Below, one piece after another: positions 910-7,711 of a stretch of DNA of 64,000 nt. The stretch spans positions 4,668,501 to 4,732,500 of the forward strand of contig NZ_CP119147.1 in assembly GCF_029167645.1 (NCBI RefSeq). Direction: 5' to 3'. Positions within the stretch are counted from its first letter, which is position 1. Each line of letters starts with the position of its first letter. The notes below the pieces were generated by a model. That model ran no database searches and had not been told where the DNA came from. It saw only the letters and a list, made by a program, of their open reading frames with translations. The translations under genes and the position numbers were made by a program. The DNA is from Streptomyces sp. AM 2-1-1. GTDB lineage: Bacteria; Actinomycetota; Actinomycetes; Streptomycetales; Streptomycetaceae.

Positions 910-983
910 TGCGCCGCCAGGGACTCGAACCCCGGACCCGCTGATTAAGAGTCAGCTGCTCTAACCAACTGAGCTAGCGGCGC
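910..983 (-). tRNA. tRNA-Lys (anticodon CTT)
   Basis: Reading the minus strand from 983, the 7-bp acceptor stem GCGCCGC pairs with GCGGCGC at 911-917. The D-loop AGCTCAGTTGGTTAGAGC, the anticodon arm GCTGA-CTCTTAA-TCAGC with anticodon CTT, and the T-arm GGTTCGAGTCC are all present. The discriminator base is A at 910 and CCA is not encoded. The 5' end overlaps the last ten bases of the neighbouring prim-pol-like gene on the same strand. Confidence 0.96.
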
Positions 984-1654
984 CTGCTGACGTCGTAGAC
1001 ATTAGCACCCGGATCCGCAGGAGGAAAAATCGAGTAATCCGACGGGGGGAGGACCGCGCTCCGGGCTGCCCGCACACAGGCCCAGCGCAGTACGTCCGGC
1101 CCCGGCAGCCAGGGGGTGCGGGTGTCGGGGGCGACCACCCACTGCGGACCCGACGCGGTGGGGTCGCAGGTCAGCGGCGGTACGGTCACCGCGTCGCCGG
1201 TGCCGTGGCAGAGCACCGGAGGCAGCGCGTGCGCCGTCCGCCCGGGGCGGGCGCCGCCCGTACCCCACTCCTCCCAGGCGAGCAGCGAGGGGAGCCGCTG
1301 GGCGGTGCCGGGGGCCGCGAAGAGCAGGGTCCGGCCGCGATGGGTGGCGACCGGACCGGAGCCCGGTCCCTGCGCCCAGAGCCGCTCCAGCATCCGCCGT
1401 CCGAACAGCGCCGGGACGCTCACCACGTCGAACGCGGTGCCGCAGGGCAGGACGCCGGGGGAGGCGGGGCTCCGCTGCCAGCGGGCGAGCGTGGCGCGCG
1501 GGTTCGCGGTGGCGCCGGCGAGCCAGAGCGCCCCGGCGGGGGTGACCTCGGCGGGCTGATGGGCGGCCTGACTCCGCAGATGGGGCAGGGTACCGACGCC
1601 GGAGCGCGGGTCGCGGGTCTGCAGGGACGTTTCGTCTTCCAGCCATGCGGTCAT
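974..1654 (-). CDS. Degenerate bifunctional primase/polymerase (prim-pol)-like protein
   Basis: A 226-aa protein that resembles the N-terminal AEP/prim-pol fold common in actinobacterial proteins annotated as bifunctional DNA primase/polymerase. It keeps the landmarks of that fold: WLAGATANPRATLARWQRS near the N-terminus, FDVVSVPALFGRRMLERL in the middle, and GPVATHRGRTLLFAAPGT after it. In active enzymes the middle segment carries metal-binding Asp residues (a D-x-D type motif). Here that site reads V-S-V-P, so catalysis is doubtful and a regulatory or binding role is more likely. A related small protein sits at 10347-10862. The stop codon TAG (976-974) falls inside the tRNA-Lys gene, at U8-A9-G10 of the tRNA. 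No clear Shine-Dalgarno precedes the ATG at 1654, so translation may be leaderless or the start may be misplaced. Confidence 0.65.
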   Translation of the reverse strand: MTAWLEDETSLQTRDPRSGVGTLPHLRSQAAHQPAEVTPAGALWLAGATANPRATLARWQRSPASPGVLPCGTAFDVVSVPALFGRRMLERLWAQGPGSGPVATHRGRTLLFAAPGTAQRLPSLLAWEEWGTGGARPGRTAHALPPVLCHGTGDAVTVPPLTCDPTASGPQWVVAPDTRTPWLPGPDVLRWACVRAARSAVLPPSDYSIFPPADPGANVYDVSRRR

Positions 1655-2621: not shown

Positions 2622-3968
2622 TCAACCGGCCCAGGACACCCGGTGGTCCGACCAGTGCTCCCAGGTGGACTGCATGGCCTCCCAGCCGTCCGGGAACTTC
2701 ACCTCCACGCCGAGCTGCACCGGTTCCGTGGAGGGATGCGCGTCCAGCAGATCGGCGACGCCCGCCCGGCACACCACCACGCAGGCGTGCCGGTGGCGGG
2801 AGGCCAGGACGCAGAGCCGGCCCGTCTCCAGGTGGAACGCGGTGGCGTCCGGCCGCCCCGAGAGCGGGTGCAGCACCACCGTGACGTCGAACTCCCGCCC
2901 CTGGAGCCGGTTGGCGGTGTCCACCGCGACCCCCGTGACCCCCATCCCGGAGAGGGCCGCCCGCACCGCCGCCGCCTGGTCGCGGTGGGCCGTGCCGACC
3001 GCGATCCGGTCCGCCGACACCGGCACCGGTCCCCTCGCGCGCTCGCTGGTCGCCGTGGCGCCCCGGTCCAGCAGCCTGCGGACCACCAGCGCCACCGCGC
3101 GCACCGCCTCCGGATCGGTGCGCGGGGTGTGGCCGGCGGGCAGCTCCAGCAGACCCCAGCCGGACTCCGCCGCCACGTCCAGCACCCGGTCGGGCCCCGA
3201 GCCGTCCGACGCCGTGGCGAACCCCAGCGACCGGTCGCCGTGGCCCGTACCGCTGCGGAACGGGGTGTCCGGGTAGAACGCGTCCGAGACCAGCGGCGCC
3301 GCCGAGGCCGGCAGCCGCCAGGAGACCGGCAGCCGGTGCTGCGGCAGCCGCGGATTGTGCGCCAGCAGCGCGGCGACGGCGCTCGCCGACGGGTCGTGGC
3401 TCAGCCCTGCCCACTGGTCCGCGCCGACGATCGAGAACGGGTCCAACTGGCCCGGGTCCCCCACGAAGAGGGCCCGCCGGAAGAGACCGGCCACGGCGAG
3501 CAGCGCGTCCGACCGCATCTGGTACGCCTCGTCGACGATCGCGTGGTCCCACGGCTCCACGTTCTTCACGTGCGCCCACTTCGCGGCCGTCGACACGACC
3601 ACGTCGAGCCCGGCCAGGTCCGCCGCCTTCGCGGACTTGCGGACGTTCTCCAGGCCGTCCAGCACCTTGTCGTACGGGTCGGAGTCACTGCTGTGCAGCC
3701 GCCCGACCGGCAGCTCCGGCTCCTTCTCGGCGAGGCGCACCACCAGGTCGTCGACCTGGGCGTTGGTCTGCGCGATCACCATCAAGGGGCGTCCGGCGGC
3801 GGCGAGTTCGAGGGCGGCGCGGACGACCAGCGTCGACTTGCCCGCGCCCGGCGGGGAGTTCACCACGACACCCCGCGCATCACCGTGCAGGGTGTCGTGG
3901 AGGATCGCGTCGGTGGCGCGCGCCGCCGCCACGCCCGGATCGAGGTGCGCGGTGCGTACGTCGGTCAC
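2622..3968 (-). CDS. Superfamily 1-type ATPase/helicase, third gene of nuclease-helicase operon
   Basis: 448 aa starting at a GTG whose bases overlap the TGA of the upstream gene (GTGA, 4-nt overlap), implying translational coupling. The SF1 helicase motifs run in order: Walker A SPPGAGKST (about 39-46), motif Ia around VIAQTNAQVDDLV, Walker B HAIVDEAYQM, motif III GDPGQLDPF, an SWRLP motif IV, motif V VDTANRLQGREFDV and motif VI ASRHRHACVVV. This matches the compact UvrD/Upf1-like helicases (AAA_11/AAA_12 type) that translocate on nucleic acid. DEAY replaces the commoner DEAx/DExQ box. It is short for a DNA-repair helicase, without obvious 1B/2B insertions; the upstream partner protein might supply such functions. 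The operon pairs it with a RecB-type nuclease. Confidence 0.8.
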   Translation of the reverse strand: MTDVRTAHLDPGVAAARATDAILHDTLHGDARGVVVNSPPGAGKSTLVVRAALELAAAGRPLMVIAQTNAQVDDLVVRLAEKEPELPVGRLHSSDSDPYDKVLDGLENVRKSAKAADLAGLDVVVSTAAKWAHVKNVEPWDHAIVDEAYQMRSDALLAVAGLFRRALFVGDPGQLDPFSIVGADQWAGLSHDPSASAVAALLAHNPRLPQHRLPVSWRLPASAAPLVSDAFYPDTPFRSGTGHGDRSLGFATASDGSGPDRVLDVAAESGWGLLELPAGHTPRTDPEAVRAVALVVRRLLDRGATATSERARGPVPVSADRIAVGTAHRDQAAAVRAALSGMGVTGVAVDTANRLQGREFDVTVVLHPLSGRPDATAFHLETGRLCVLASRHRHACVVVCRAGVADLLDAHPSTEPVQLGVEVKFPDGWEAMQSTWEHWSDHRVSWAG

Positions 3969-5596
3969 AGCAGGTCCTCCGGGGTCACGGCGTCGGGCTG
4001 TTCTGCGGTCGCGCCCGGCGGGCCGCCGTGCGTCCACGGGGTCTCCTCCGCGTCCGGCAGCGCCGGCCCACCGCGCTGGTCGTGCTCGAACAGCGTCCAC
4101 ACCGTGCGCTCGCCCGGCTCCGGCACCGACCCGGGGGCGGGCTCCCTGCCACGCCCCATCCGGTCCAGGACGCGCAGCACCAGCAGCAGGTCCGAACCGT
4201 CGTCCGGTGTCTCGGCGCCCTCACCGGCCCCGGATCCCGGGGCGTACACCACGAACTCCGCCGACTGCGGCCTGCCGTCCAGCGAGCGGTAGACCTTCGT
4301 CCGCTCGCCCACCTGCGGGCGCTCGGCCGTACGGACGGTGACGAGCGGGCGCGGAGAGGGGCGCTTCGACTCGGTGTACGCCATCTCCACCCCGGTCACC
4401 TCGCCGACGAACGCCTCACCGTTCAGCCGCCGGCCGGCCAGCACCAGGGGATCGTCCAGCGCCTCCTGGGCGTCCAGCTGCGCCTGCGCCGTCTCACGGG
4501 AGGCCAGCTTCCGGGCCGCCGTCACCGCGTCGTCCCGGCGGGGCTGCGGCGGCTCGCCCGAGCGCACCTTGTCCCGGTGGCCGGTGAACGACCAGCGGTC
4601 GCGGGTCCACCGCTCCTCCGCCCGGGGCGCCTCCGGCAGCTCCCGCAGCCGGTCGATCCCGCGCCACACCGCGTCCCAGGTCGGCAGCAGCACCCCGGCC
4701 AGCACCTTGCGGATCTCGCGCTCGGCGGCGTGCAGGTCGCCGAGCCGCTCATCGGCCCGCAGCCCGTCCTCGGCCGCCGCCAGCGCGGTGCGGGCCCGGT
4801 CGTACCGCTCGATCGCGGGCGCCAGCAGCCGGTTGTCGAACGCCGGGTCCGTGGCCGGACCGGCGGGCGGGCAGACCAGCTGACCGTCCCGGTCCCGGTC
4901 CAGCTCCGCCCGGAGCGCGGCCTCGGCGCCCGACGCGCCGTCCGGCGGATCGATCCAGGCGAGCAGCGCCCCCAGGTGCTGGTCCTCCACACTGCTCTGC
5001 CCCGTCGCCCAGTGGCGGTTGAGCAGATCGGTGGTGGCCAGCAGCAACGAGGAACCCGGCACCCGGGCCCGCTCGGCGTAGTGCGTCAGCCAGCGCCCGA
5101 GCAGCGGCACCCGGGGCGGCGCCGGATACGGGGTGTCCGGATCGTCCTCGGCGGTGCGGCGGAACCGCATCGACCGCCCCAGCAGCCGCACCAGATCGAC
5201 ACCCGCCCTGCTCGGCACGATCAACTGCGCCGCGTCCACGCAGAGTTCGACCTCGACCTTGGCCTTCTTGCCGGTCTCCGGGTCGGTCTCGTTCCGCTCG
5301 ACGGCCTCCACCACGTCCGCGTACGCCTCGATGTGCGGCAGCACCAGCTCGGCCAGCTCCGCCAGGAACGCGAACCGCAGGTCGCGGTCGCGCGGCTGCG
5401 CCACCGTGAGGAGCCGGGGCGCCTGGCGGTCGGTCCCCACCAGCGCGCCCAGCGGGGCGCCCGCCTCGCCGGACGTGGTGAGCGGCACCAGGACGAGCGG
5501 CCGGTCGGTCAGGTGCCGGTGGCGGACGGTCGCGAGCGGCTGGGCCCGCCCGCTGTCCACCGCCTCCAGCCGGGCCAGGGTGCTGATCAGTGACAT
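3965..5596 (-). CDS. Unknown 543-aa protein, second gene of nuclease-helicase operon
   Basis: I do not recognise a family. The ATG at 5596 overlaps the end of the upstream nuclease gene by 10 bp, and its TGA overlaps the helicase start by 4 bp, so all three proteins are probably made together. The first 240 residues look like a mixed alpha/beta region. Residues about 260-400 are rich in charged helices (for example AERAALAAAEDGL-like and AAEREIRKVLAGV) and may form a coiled coil. The segment EAFVGEVTGVEMAYTESK followed by RPLVTVRT resembles small beta-barrel insertions such as the 2B/OB regions of SF1 helicases. The tail is acidic and proline-rich. No cysteine cluster, P-loop or nuclease motif is visible. 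The likely role is a partner linking the nuclease and helicase, which is inferred from context only. Confidence 0.7.
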   Translation of the reverse strand: MSLISTLARLEAVDSGRAQPLATVRHRHLTDRPLVLVPLTTSGEAGAPLGALVGTDRQAPRLLTVAQPRDRDLRFAFLAELAELVLPHIEAYADVVEAVERNETDPETGKKAKVEVELCVDAAQLIVPSRAGVDLVRLLGRSMRFRRTAEDDPDTPYPAPPRVPLLGRWLTHYAERARVPGSSLLLATTDLLNRHWATGQSSVEDQHLGALLAWIDPPDGASGAEAALRAELDRDRDGQLVCPPAGPATDPAFDNRLLAPAIERYDRARTALAAAEDGLRADERLGDLHAAEREIRKVLAGVLLPTWDAVWRGIDRLRELPEAPRAEERWTRDRWSFTGHRDKVRSGEPPQPRRDDAVTAARKLASRETAQAQLDAQEALDDPLVLAGRRLNGEAFVGEVTGVEMAYTESKRPSPRPLVTVRTAERPQVGERTKVYRSLDGRPQSAEFVVYAPGSGAGEGAETPDDGSDLLLVLRVLDRMGRGREPAPGSVPEPGERTVWTLFEHDQRGGPALPDAEETPWTHGGPPGATAEQPDAVTPEDLL

Positions 5597-6861
5597 GGAG
5601 CCGTGCCCTCCCGTACCGCCGTGCCGTCCCCGGCCACCGGGCCCCCGCGCACCGCCGAGCCGTCGCCCGCCGCCCTGACCGGAGCCGGGGCGCCCTCCAG
5701 CGCCTCGGCGCGCAGGGCCGCCGCGCGGCGCAGCGCGGCGACGGCCGGGTCCGCCGGGTCACCGTCCTTGCCGGCCGCCGCGTCCAGCACCGCGCGGACC
5801 GTCGTCAGCCCGCCGAGCTCGCCGCGCACCCCGCGTCCCAGGGCCTGCACCGCGCCCTCGGCCCGGGCCTTCGCCCGGCAGTGGAACGCCAGCTCGCAGG
5901 CGGCCAGGCACTCGGGGGCGTACGCCGCGGGCACCGCCTCCACGGCGGCGGTCAGCTCCTCGGCCGAGCACCCCGGGTCGAAGGTGGTGCCCTCGGGGAG
6001 CAGCTCCGCGATCTCCTCGATACGGGTGAGCCGGGTCAGCTGGCGGCGGGTCACCGCGCGCTGCTTGCGCACGTCCACCACGGAGCCGGTGGGGAGGTTG
6101 GAGAAGTCCCGGGGGCAGACGAGGAGGACGTCGTGGGCCACCTCGGCGCCCTCGGTGCGGGCGGCGACCCCCTCCAGGGCGAGGACGTAGACCGCCGACT
6201 GCCGGGCGGCGGCGCCGACCTTCGCCGCGTCCGCCGACCCGTCGATCATGGGGAACGACTTGATCTCGATGACCGTCCACCGGCCGTCGGGGTGCACCAC
6301 CACCGCGTCGGGTTCCAGATAGGCGGGCGAACCCGCCACCTCCAGCGCCAGCATGGGGTGGTCGAGGAGGCTCCAGCCGCCGGCCGCGGTCGCCTCGCGC
6401 AGCGCCAGCGCGGTGCGGGCCGTCCGGCCCTCGGGTCCGGCCGCCGACAGGTCGGGGACCCGGGCGCCCCGCGGCGGTTCGCCGCCCTCGCCGAGACTCT
6501 CGTGCAGCAGGCGCAGCAGCTCGGTGCCGCCGTCCGCCTTGACCCGCGCCTCGAAGGCGTTGCCCCGCATGAAGGCGAACTGCGACTGGCCGTACCCCGA
6601 GGGGGAGCCGAGCGCGGTGGCCAGCACGGTCTTGTCGACACCGGCGCCGTCGAGCAGCGCCCGCCGCTTGCAGCCCGGGTTGGCGGCGAGGGCGGCCAGC
6701 GCGCGGGCGTCCAGCGGATGCGGGACGACGGTCGGTCCGCGCAGCTCAGCGAGCCGCTGCCGGAGCGCTGTCGCCCGCGGCCGTCCGGCCGGGGGAGCCG
6801 GAGGCTTCGGGCGCGACGCTGGGATGTGCGGAGGGGGTCCGCCGGCCGGGGAATCGCTCAC
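5587..6861 (-). CDS. RecB/Cas4-like PD-(D/E)XK nuclease with probable Fe-S cluster
   Basis: About 424 aa from a GTG at 6861; a TTG at 6891 would add ten residues and neither has a clear ribosome site. After a proline-rich N-terminus come the RecB-family nuclease motifs in order: RGNAFE (about 99-104), EPDAVVV with the first acidic residue D185, IEIKSF with E199 and K201, and RQSAVY giving the Q-x3-Y motif (Q221, Y225). Four cysteines are placed as in Cas4 and AddB Fe-S nucleases: one before the core (NPGC, C64) and three after it (ECLAACELAFHC, C318, C322, C328). Spacing is C-x3-C-x5-C rather than the usual C-x2-C-x5-C. The start overlaps the 3' end of the PAP2 gene by 116 bp. Likely a DNA end-processing nuclease acting with the downstream helicase. 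Confidence 0.72.
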   Translation of the reverse strand: MSDSPAGGPPPHIPASRPKPPAPPAGRPRATALRQRLAELRGPTVVPHPLDARALAALAANPGCKRRALLDGAGVDKTVLATALGSPSGYGQSQFAFMRGNAFEARVKADGGTELLRLLHESLGEGGEPPRGARVPDLSAAGPEGRTARTALALREATAAGGWSLLDHPMLALEVAGSPAYLEPDAVVVHPDGRWTVIEIKSFPMIDGSADAAKVGAAARQSAVYVLALEGVAARTEGAEVAHDVLLVCPRDFSNLPTGSVVDVRKQRAVTRRQLTRLTRIEEIAELLPEGTTFDPGCSAEELTAAVEAVPAAYAPECLAACELAFHCRAKARAEGAVQALGRGVRGELGGLTTVRAVLDAAAGKDGDPADPAVAALRRAAALRAEALEGAPAPVRAAGDGSAVRGGPVAGDGTAVREGTAPCH

Positions 6862-7711
6862 CCGCCGAAGTCTCGCATCCCCCACCGACAATCGGGGAGC
6901 CCGTCGGTCCGACGGTGGTTCCCGGGGCGCTCCGCCGGGGGACGGACTCCCGCAGCCGGGCCGTGACGGCCGCGGCGGCGCGCCGCACCGGGCGGGTCAG
7001 CAGGGCGCCCGCTCCCATCACGGCGGCGCCCGCCACCGCGTCGAGGAAGTAGTGGTTGGCGGTGCCCATGACGACGAAGACGATCGTCAGCGGGTAGAGG
7101 ACGCCGAGCACGCGGAGCAGCGGATGCCGTCCGTACCGCCAGAGCAGCACCCCGCACCAGAGCGCCCACCCCACGTGGAGGCTCGGCATCGCCGCGTACT
7201 GGTTGGTCATGCCGCCGAGCCCGCGCGGGGCGCTCGCCTCCGCGCCCCACCACCCGTAGGAGCTGTACTGGGCCATGGTGTCGACGAACCCGTGCCGGGC
7301 GTCGAGGAGCCGGGGCGGACAGGTCGGCAGCAGCGTGAAGCCGATCAGACCGATCAGGGTGGAGGTCAGCAGCCAGGTGCGGACCGTGCGGTAGGCGTCG
7401 GCGCGGCGCCGGTACATCCACAGGAGCAGCGCCGGGGTGACGAGGTAGTGCAGGGAGGCGTACGCGAAGTCGGCGGGTATGCCCAGCGAGGAGTGCGCGG
7501 TCAGCAGCCGGTTGAGCGGGTGTTCGAAGTTGAGGTGGAGCGATTTCTCCAGCCGGAGTATCGCGAGGCCGTGGTCGACGGCGGTGGATATGTCGCCGCG
7601 CACCAGCAGCCGGCCGAGCGAGTAGAGCCCGTACACCCCCGCTATGAGCGGCAGCTCCGTCCACCAACGGGGCCTGGGCCCGCGGGCGCGTGCGGGGGTG
7701 GCGTGCGGCAT
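6746..7711 (-). CDS. PAP2-superfamily membrane phosphatase / phosphotransferase
   Basis: 321 aa starting at an ATG at 7711. Several hydrophobic segments ([67 protein letters not shown]) indicate a polytopic membrane protein. The PAP2/AUR1-type active-site pieces are present: [17 protein letters not shown] with the His of motif C2, and [10 protein letters not shown] with the C3 His and Asp. This subgroup (PAP2_3, inositolphosphotransferase-like) acts on lipid phosphates; the exact substrate is unknown. The last 60 residues after the final membrane segment are low-complexity, and their coding sequence overlaps the start of the nuclease gene by 116 bp in another frame, which suggests the tail is under little constraint. 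Confidence 0.82.

Follow-up and report, generated by a model that had tools for sequence, protein, structure and literature searches.

The analyzed window, a stretch of 64,000 nucleotides from the 7.2 Mb genome of Streptomyces sp. AM 2-1-1 (contig NZ_CP119147.1, positions 4,668,501 to 4,732,500), carries three overlapping minus-strand genes in the order nuc, mid, hel. All three open reading frames (ORFs) were confirmed at the coordinates given in Table 1. We propose, with roughly even confidence, that this operon encodes a three-subunit helicase-nuclease similar to DNA2 and to the bacterial protein Bad, with a core copy that would act in genome maintenance and accessory copies that would have been recruited to defence against mobile elements. 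The nuc-mid-hel arrangement itself is real, and chance is excluded because the collinear co-occurrence of the three genes spans a phylum. The operon is nearly universal in Streptomyces and its predicted motor and nuclease are complete by sequence, yet it is unnamed in the records seen.

In the proposed mechanism, hel would be a superfamily 1B (SF1B) motor on single-stranded DNA (ssDNA), presumably moving 5'->3'. The mid protein would be its obligate partner, probably providing DNA grip and docking, and nuc would be a PD-(D/E)XK nuclease held by a four-cysteine iron-sulfur (Fe-S) staple that cuts the ssDNA fed by the motor. The complex would enter at a free 5' ssDNA end or flap and go on to unwind and trim the DNA, with mid and hel as the constant motor and the nuclease as a frequent effector. 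We infer a physical complex, Fe-S occupancy, polarity, nuclease activity, and substrate in this model. If the operon is indeed a three-part DNA2, it would allow the roles of the nuclease, the middle protein, and the motor, which are still open questions for Bad, to be studied separately, and would connect core genome upkeep with plasmid-borne defence loci.

Sequence features of the three proteins

Genome and locus counts throughout come from sampled genome sets. Among 124 loci with a nuc match, 97 had near-full-length nuc, mid, and hel and were aligned, and 27 were left out; the 97 trios represent 96 distinct loci (L042 and L075 are one locus), and L144 and L145 have identical nuc. The rows used for trees and counts were L001-L033, L035-L039, L042, L067-L155, L168, L172, and L173, minus the broken or duplicate L030, L034, L076, L090, L110, and L127. 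Loci L040, L041, and L043-L066 stayed outside the trees and repeat included loci, except L041, a core copy.

The initial annotation had described the third gene as an SF1 ATPase with helicase motifs, and this was borne out. Pfam matched hel to AAA_11 (2.9e-12) and AAA_12 (9.4e-8), the best PDB chains were SMUBP2 (1e-10) and then DNA2 (5.5e-7), and the only UvrD-type Pfam model to appear was UvrD_C_2 (E=0.06). Residues G41, G43, K44, D146, E147, G170-Q174, R218, Q356, G357, and R384 were found in 97/97 trios; position 45 was S in 87 and T in 10, and R391 was present in 96, with one gap. By sequence family, hel is thus probably an SF1B helicase of the Upf1/DNA2 type. Since it resembles Upf1, SMUBP2, and DNA2 and not UvrD, DNA2 or bacterial Bad is taken as the closest working model. 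The family of hel also includes RNA helicases, so that the motor might act on RNA or R-loops like Upf1, with nuc as an R-loop or RNA enzyme. However, the nuclease is of the RecB/Cas4 type and the neighbors of the trio include the DNA enzymes SbcCD, Wadjet, Prim-Pol, and a methylase, and we consider this explanation very improbable.

The nuclease motifs and four placed cysteines that had been noticed in nuc were present: C64, RG-x2-FE with F103-E104, D185, E199-x-K201, Q221-x3-Y225, and C318-x3-C322-x5-C328 (424-aa numbering). The four cysteines, F103, and Y225 were invariant in the 97 aligned trios. D185 and Q221 were kept in 96, the sole exception being L139, which is possibly misaligned, and E104, E199, and K201 were kept in 84. 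Compared with a 30-row Cas4 alignment (hhalign), the nuc profile scored 79.6% across 54 columns, and its D, E-x-K, and Q-x3-Y motifs fell on their Cas4 counterparts. A 14-row TM0106 alignment gave 41% over 203 columns, extending to the C-terminal cysteines, and a control profile of the unrelated upstream gene scored 0.2%. These results suggest that nuc belongs to the PD-(D/E)XK superfamily and is of the RecB/Cas4 type, with four cysteines spanning the domain.

The 543-aa mid protein had been called unlike any known family, and it indeed had no significant match in Pfam, NCBIfam, PADLOC, PHROGs, or PDB, the weak ones all having E >= 0.009; in PADLOC nothing matched up to E=1. By eye, its C-terminal third looks like a stalk and 1B barrel, which hel lacks. 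Position 23 of the hel profile aligns with SMUBP2 residue 201.

Distribution and phylogeny of the trio

The nuc gene was present in 186 of 199 same-genus genomes. Among the 13 genomes without it, ten also lacked mid and a strong hel match; three of these ten have weak matches inside long helicase ORFs, and two are only 81-82% complete. The remaining three were uninformative: G010 has an N-run at the expected nuc site, and the contigs of G416 and G455 start at the operon. In the first search, mid was found in 25/25 same-genus genomes, including that of the window (as a fragment in G001 and interrupted in G010), and in 7/16 more distant genomes. In a phylum sample of 296 genomes, mid was detected in 11, and nuc in these and also in G204 and G291, 13 in all. 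Strong hel matches occurred in the same 13, and weak helicase matches in 40 further genomes. A diverged mid sits between nuc and hel in both G204 and G291.

Gene order was followed in 80 named loci, the best 80 of 133 relatives from a nuclease-based contig scan, chosen by nuclease similarity to three sequences. There mid adjoins nuc in 79 (the exception is L088), and hel is the next gene in 61. Thus, the co-occurrence suggested as a check on the initial annotation was observed, both in gene order and in the joint absences.

In the trees of nuc, mid, and hel, the core Streptomyces copies formed one clade, with support of 0.98, 0.59, and 0.98, respectively. The pairwise tree distances of the three proteins were correlated (Pearson 0.99, Spearman 0.84-0.89), which is explicable by shared ancestry alone. 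Loss of E-x-K was confined to one 13-member clade with support of 1.0 in all three trees, consisting entirely of Streptomyces accessory copies (L025, L074, L098, L100, L102, L107, L113, L114, L119, L135, L138, L142, and L146). In this clade E199 is replaced by L or V, K201 by R, and E104 by H, and the cysteines and helicase positions are intact. The core Streptomyces copy most likely serves genome maintenance or housekeeping, and its accessory relatives seem to have been recruited to defence against mobile elements.

Homologs of the trio are labelled "hypothetical protein" or "AAA family ATPase" in the records seen, and a few nuclease homologs "Secreted protein." The literature searched, mostly open-access, yielded no paper on the nuc-mid-hel trio among the matches listed. 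SCO2522-SCO2526 was considered as the S. coelicolor counterpart and set aside; the available parts of two papers (PMC11472566, PMC6344877) describe an operon that could not be tied to the trio.

Comparison with known helicase-nucleases

According to the available part of the report on Bad (PMC7430649), this Geobacillus protein is 1245 aa long; nuclease motif III contains D150, Walker A contains K815, and the structure and function of the central domain are described there as unknown. Its order of an iron-staple RecB nuclease, an uncharacterized center, and an SF1B helicase is that of nuc, mid, and hel. The gene in Geobacilli neighbors a type-III-like methyltransferase (PMC7430649, available part), and the G204 trio has an N6/N4 methylase close by. 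However, Bad is one polypeptide and the trio is three genes, some copies of which have an extra upstream gene and some a dead nuclease site.

Eukaryotic DNA2 is among the closest solved helicases of hel, after SMUBP2, and has a four-Cys nuclease logic, as the accessible text of PMC7430649 describes it. It differs in that the trio genes are split and in that no DNA2 counterpart of mid was found; a PDB search with nuc, as a single sequence or as a 42-row profile, gave no match up to E=1. Because nuclease and helicase do not share one polypeptide, the trio was not filed as a member of the DNA2 or Bad family. Cas4 shares with nuc the PD-(D/E)XK motifs, the four cysteines, and relatedness at the profile level. 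It differs in the helicase class and in the C-x3-C-x5-C spacing of nuc, and the Cas_Cas4 model gave no match among Pfam results up to E=1 for the 42 nuc rows. Links between Cas4-like nucleases and helicases of the UvrD or COG1205 type have been described (PMC5704561, in the part available).

Several observations weigh against the three-subunit DNA2/Bad-like reading. In Pfam, nuc matched PDDEXK_1 weakly (E=0.12; 12.7 bits, where the cut-off is 22), and only 2 of 42 nuc relatives matched this model (best E=0.0023). Against single sequences the nuc profile reached at most 3.9% (1.5% and 0.9% for TM0106-type proteins, 0.1% for UvrD-RecB); therefore, support for the nuclease family depends on profile-profile comparison. 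The PD-(D/E)XK placement expected from the initial annotation was upheld by the Cas4 profile, with weak backing from Pfam. In 19 of the 80 named loci hel was not the next gene; five had no room for it and 14 did. Of these 14, one is L088 and 13 belong to Actinoplanes or Paractinoplanes; in five of the 13, hel lies on the opposite strand, and in eight it was not reached. In G243, hel lies ~36 kb from mid. The likeness between mid and the central domain of Bad is one of lengths and order, judged by the description in the available part of PMC7430649. Identification of the mid C-terminus as a helicase 1B barrel stays a guess, as an insensitive comparison of the profile with single Upf1-like sequences was unsupportive. 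The polarity of hel and the nuc-mid-hel complex are deduced purely from family knowledge. Finally, the loss of the nuclease active site in one clade weighs against the reading as well.

The motors of AddAB and AdnAB are of the UvrD type. The initial annotation had placed the genes beside these enzymes; the pairing of a nuclease with a helicase stood, as did the likeness to the iron-staple nuclease of AddB (described in the available part of PMC7430649), but the trio has an AAA_11/AAA_12 motor and a separate nuclease. We regard as improbable that the trio acts alongside AdnAB as a second enzyme of double-strand-break resection, given this different motor family and a clade in which only the nuclease active site, among the features checked, was lost, which would be odd for such an enzyme. 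This explanation draws on the combination of a nuclease and an SF1 motor, on SbcCD beside 12 accessory copies, and on a putative AdnAB gene deletion reported as not viable in S. ambofaciens (PMC5124664, in the part available).

Relatives of mid and hel on plasmids

A tblastn search with hel returned 48 plasmid records, 37 of them from Rhodococcus, Mycobacterium, or Mycolicibacterium. In L169, L170, and L192, a ~400-aa protein precedes the helicase; upstream lie a VWA gene, of DUF2201 type in L170, and one for an AAA ATPase that by eye looks MoxR-like. L191 likewise has AAA and VWA genes, together with a mid relative, with no hel match and with a RAMP-superfamily gene nearby. The nuc profile had no match up to E=1 in L169-L171, L191, and L192. 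With the mid profile alone, L171 gave a match to the relative (1.7e-11) and L191 a weak one (0.0022); L169, L170, and L192 gave none. Compared with mid by hhalign, a five-row profile of these relatives scored 97.6% across 262 columns, or 94.4% when the Euzebya row was removed, and 20 column-shuffled controls gave <=0.4%. The mid and nuc proteins of G204, used as plasmid-search queries, returned no match. Mycobacterial DNA2-like proteins (L156, L157) were rejected as trio members; they share the helicase, but the mid and nuc profiles did not match them.

These relatives allow a broader possibility, which we take seriously while leaning against it: mid and hel may be a new modular two-part DNA motor coupled to different actinobacterial effectors, one copy of which Streptomyces would have fixed as a core genome-maintenance machine. 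The effectors would be either the Fe-S nuclease (catalytically dead in one clade, and with or without the upstream gene, SbcCD, and Wadjet) or the plasmid MoxR-VWA-like pair.

Gene neighborhood and the question of defence

The trio might instead be primarily an anti-phage or anti-plasmid defence module, with the core copy a fixed member and the additional genes acting as sensor and partner nucleases. Several neighbors point in this direction. In 58/80 named loci, nuc is immediately preceded by a ~281-aa gene with no Pfam match, which looks winged-helix-like by eye only and is an addition frequent among accessory copies. SbcD matches were found in 12 loci, all accessory copies, and are divergent to the trio by coordinates in every one. 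On the Streptomyces plasmids NZ_CP027023.1 (L168) and NZ_CP108489.1 (L172), JetA-JetB-JetC-JetD follow directly after the trio, and PADLOC confirmed JetA and JetD. The upstream gene, the trio, and JetABCD there form one same-strand block, with SbcCD divergent upstream (fragmentary in L168). This is an association of the trio with Wadjet only, with no homology seen. Near the G204 trio are the methylase, a UvrD-RecB protein, and an integrase, and in Actinoplanes L131, where hel lies apart from nuc-mid, the genes after it encode a Beta protein similar to PD-Lambda-2_C and a Prim-Pol. A restriction-like role was also suggested for Bad by its authors (PMC7430649, in the part available).

However, the presence of nuc in most same-genus genomes and the single clade of core copies are unlike typical defence genes. 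Neither nuc nor mid matched a PADLOC family (for nuc up to E=1), and the PADLOC matches of hel, the best being MkoC at 5.5e-10, reflect shared helicase similarity only. JetA is beside the trio on the two plasmids only; among the 61 named loci with hel adjacent, none was found at the 57, of chromosomal type, that hold at least 1.5 kb past hel. We thus consider a primary defence function rather doubtful. On the phage-defence idea in the initial annotation the evidence points both ways: some accessory copies have defence-type neighbors, while the copy in the genus of the window is nearly universal and falls in one clade.

The upstream ~281-aa gene was not found in the genome of the window at E<=0.001, in a search without a positive control, nor at four core-type loci with upstream room (L031, L032, L075, and L109). 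Two Streptomyces plasmids (L189, L190) carry relatives of this gene; large hypothetical genes come after it there, and no trio is annotated in the vicinity.

A viral or phage origin of the trio was considered and not adopted: no nuc relative was found in viral contigs (one alignment) and no match to the G204 hel in phage records, but hel does match the PHROGs phage family phrog_25411, whose function is unassigned there, at 3.2e-17. PLuB_AAA (NF040671), the best NCBIfam match of hel, was dropped, as its cut-off was exceeded by none in 198 genomes; a literature search for it gave no relevant paper among the matches listed.

Locus organization

Table 1. Positions of the trio and associated features in the window
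Feature	Position	Strand	Description
Gene 1, nuc	5587..6861	-	424 aa from GTG 6861; putative iron-staple-type PD-(D/E)XK nuclease by motifs and profile match
Gene 2, mid	3965..5596	-	543 aa, no known family; proposed motor partner
Gene 3, hel	2622..3968	-	448 aa, compact Upf1/DNA2-like SF1 helicase (predicted); Walker A residues 41-45
nuc stop / mid start overlap	5587..5596	-	10 bp
mid stop / hel start overlap	3965..3968	-	4 bp
Codon of C64, first proposed Fe-S ligand	6670..6672	-	Cys in 97/97 aligned trios
C318-x3-C322-x5-C328, three further proposed Fe-S ligands	5878..5910	-	97/97 aligned trios
E199-I-K201, predicted catalytic motif	6259..6267	-	Retained in 84/97; the loss is confined to one 13-member clade of Streptomyces accessory copies
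Prim-Pol-like gene downstream of hel, possible associate	974..1654	-	226 aa; Pfam Prim-Pol 1.8e-6

Both overlaps were recovered at the lengths that the initial annotation had given. Across 32 loci with all three genes, with start codons picked by script, the nuc/mid gap was -10 in 18, -4 in nine, and another value in five. The mid/hel gap was -4 in 19, -11 in four, -1 in one, and positive (17-316 bp) in eight. The start of nuc is ambiguous: GTG 6861, GTG 6885, and TTG 6891 are candidates, each within the 3' end of the upstream ORF 6746-7711, which looks PAP2-like by eye only.

For the Prim-Pol-like gene, tblastn gave matches in nine other same-genus loci and in Kitasatospora L109. The customary paired acidic motif appears incomplete by eye in the protein of the window. 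In Paractinoplanes L149, hel, a Beta-like gene, and a Prim-Pol-like gene are arranged as in Actinoplanes L131, the families being confirmed for L131 only. In two loci from metagenome-assembled genomes (L068, 3059-4753; L079, 7088-8881), an RNase_H_2 gene with a weak PDDEXK_1 match overlaps the end of hel as read from the first start codon.

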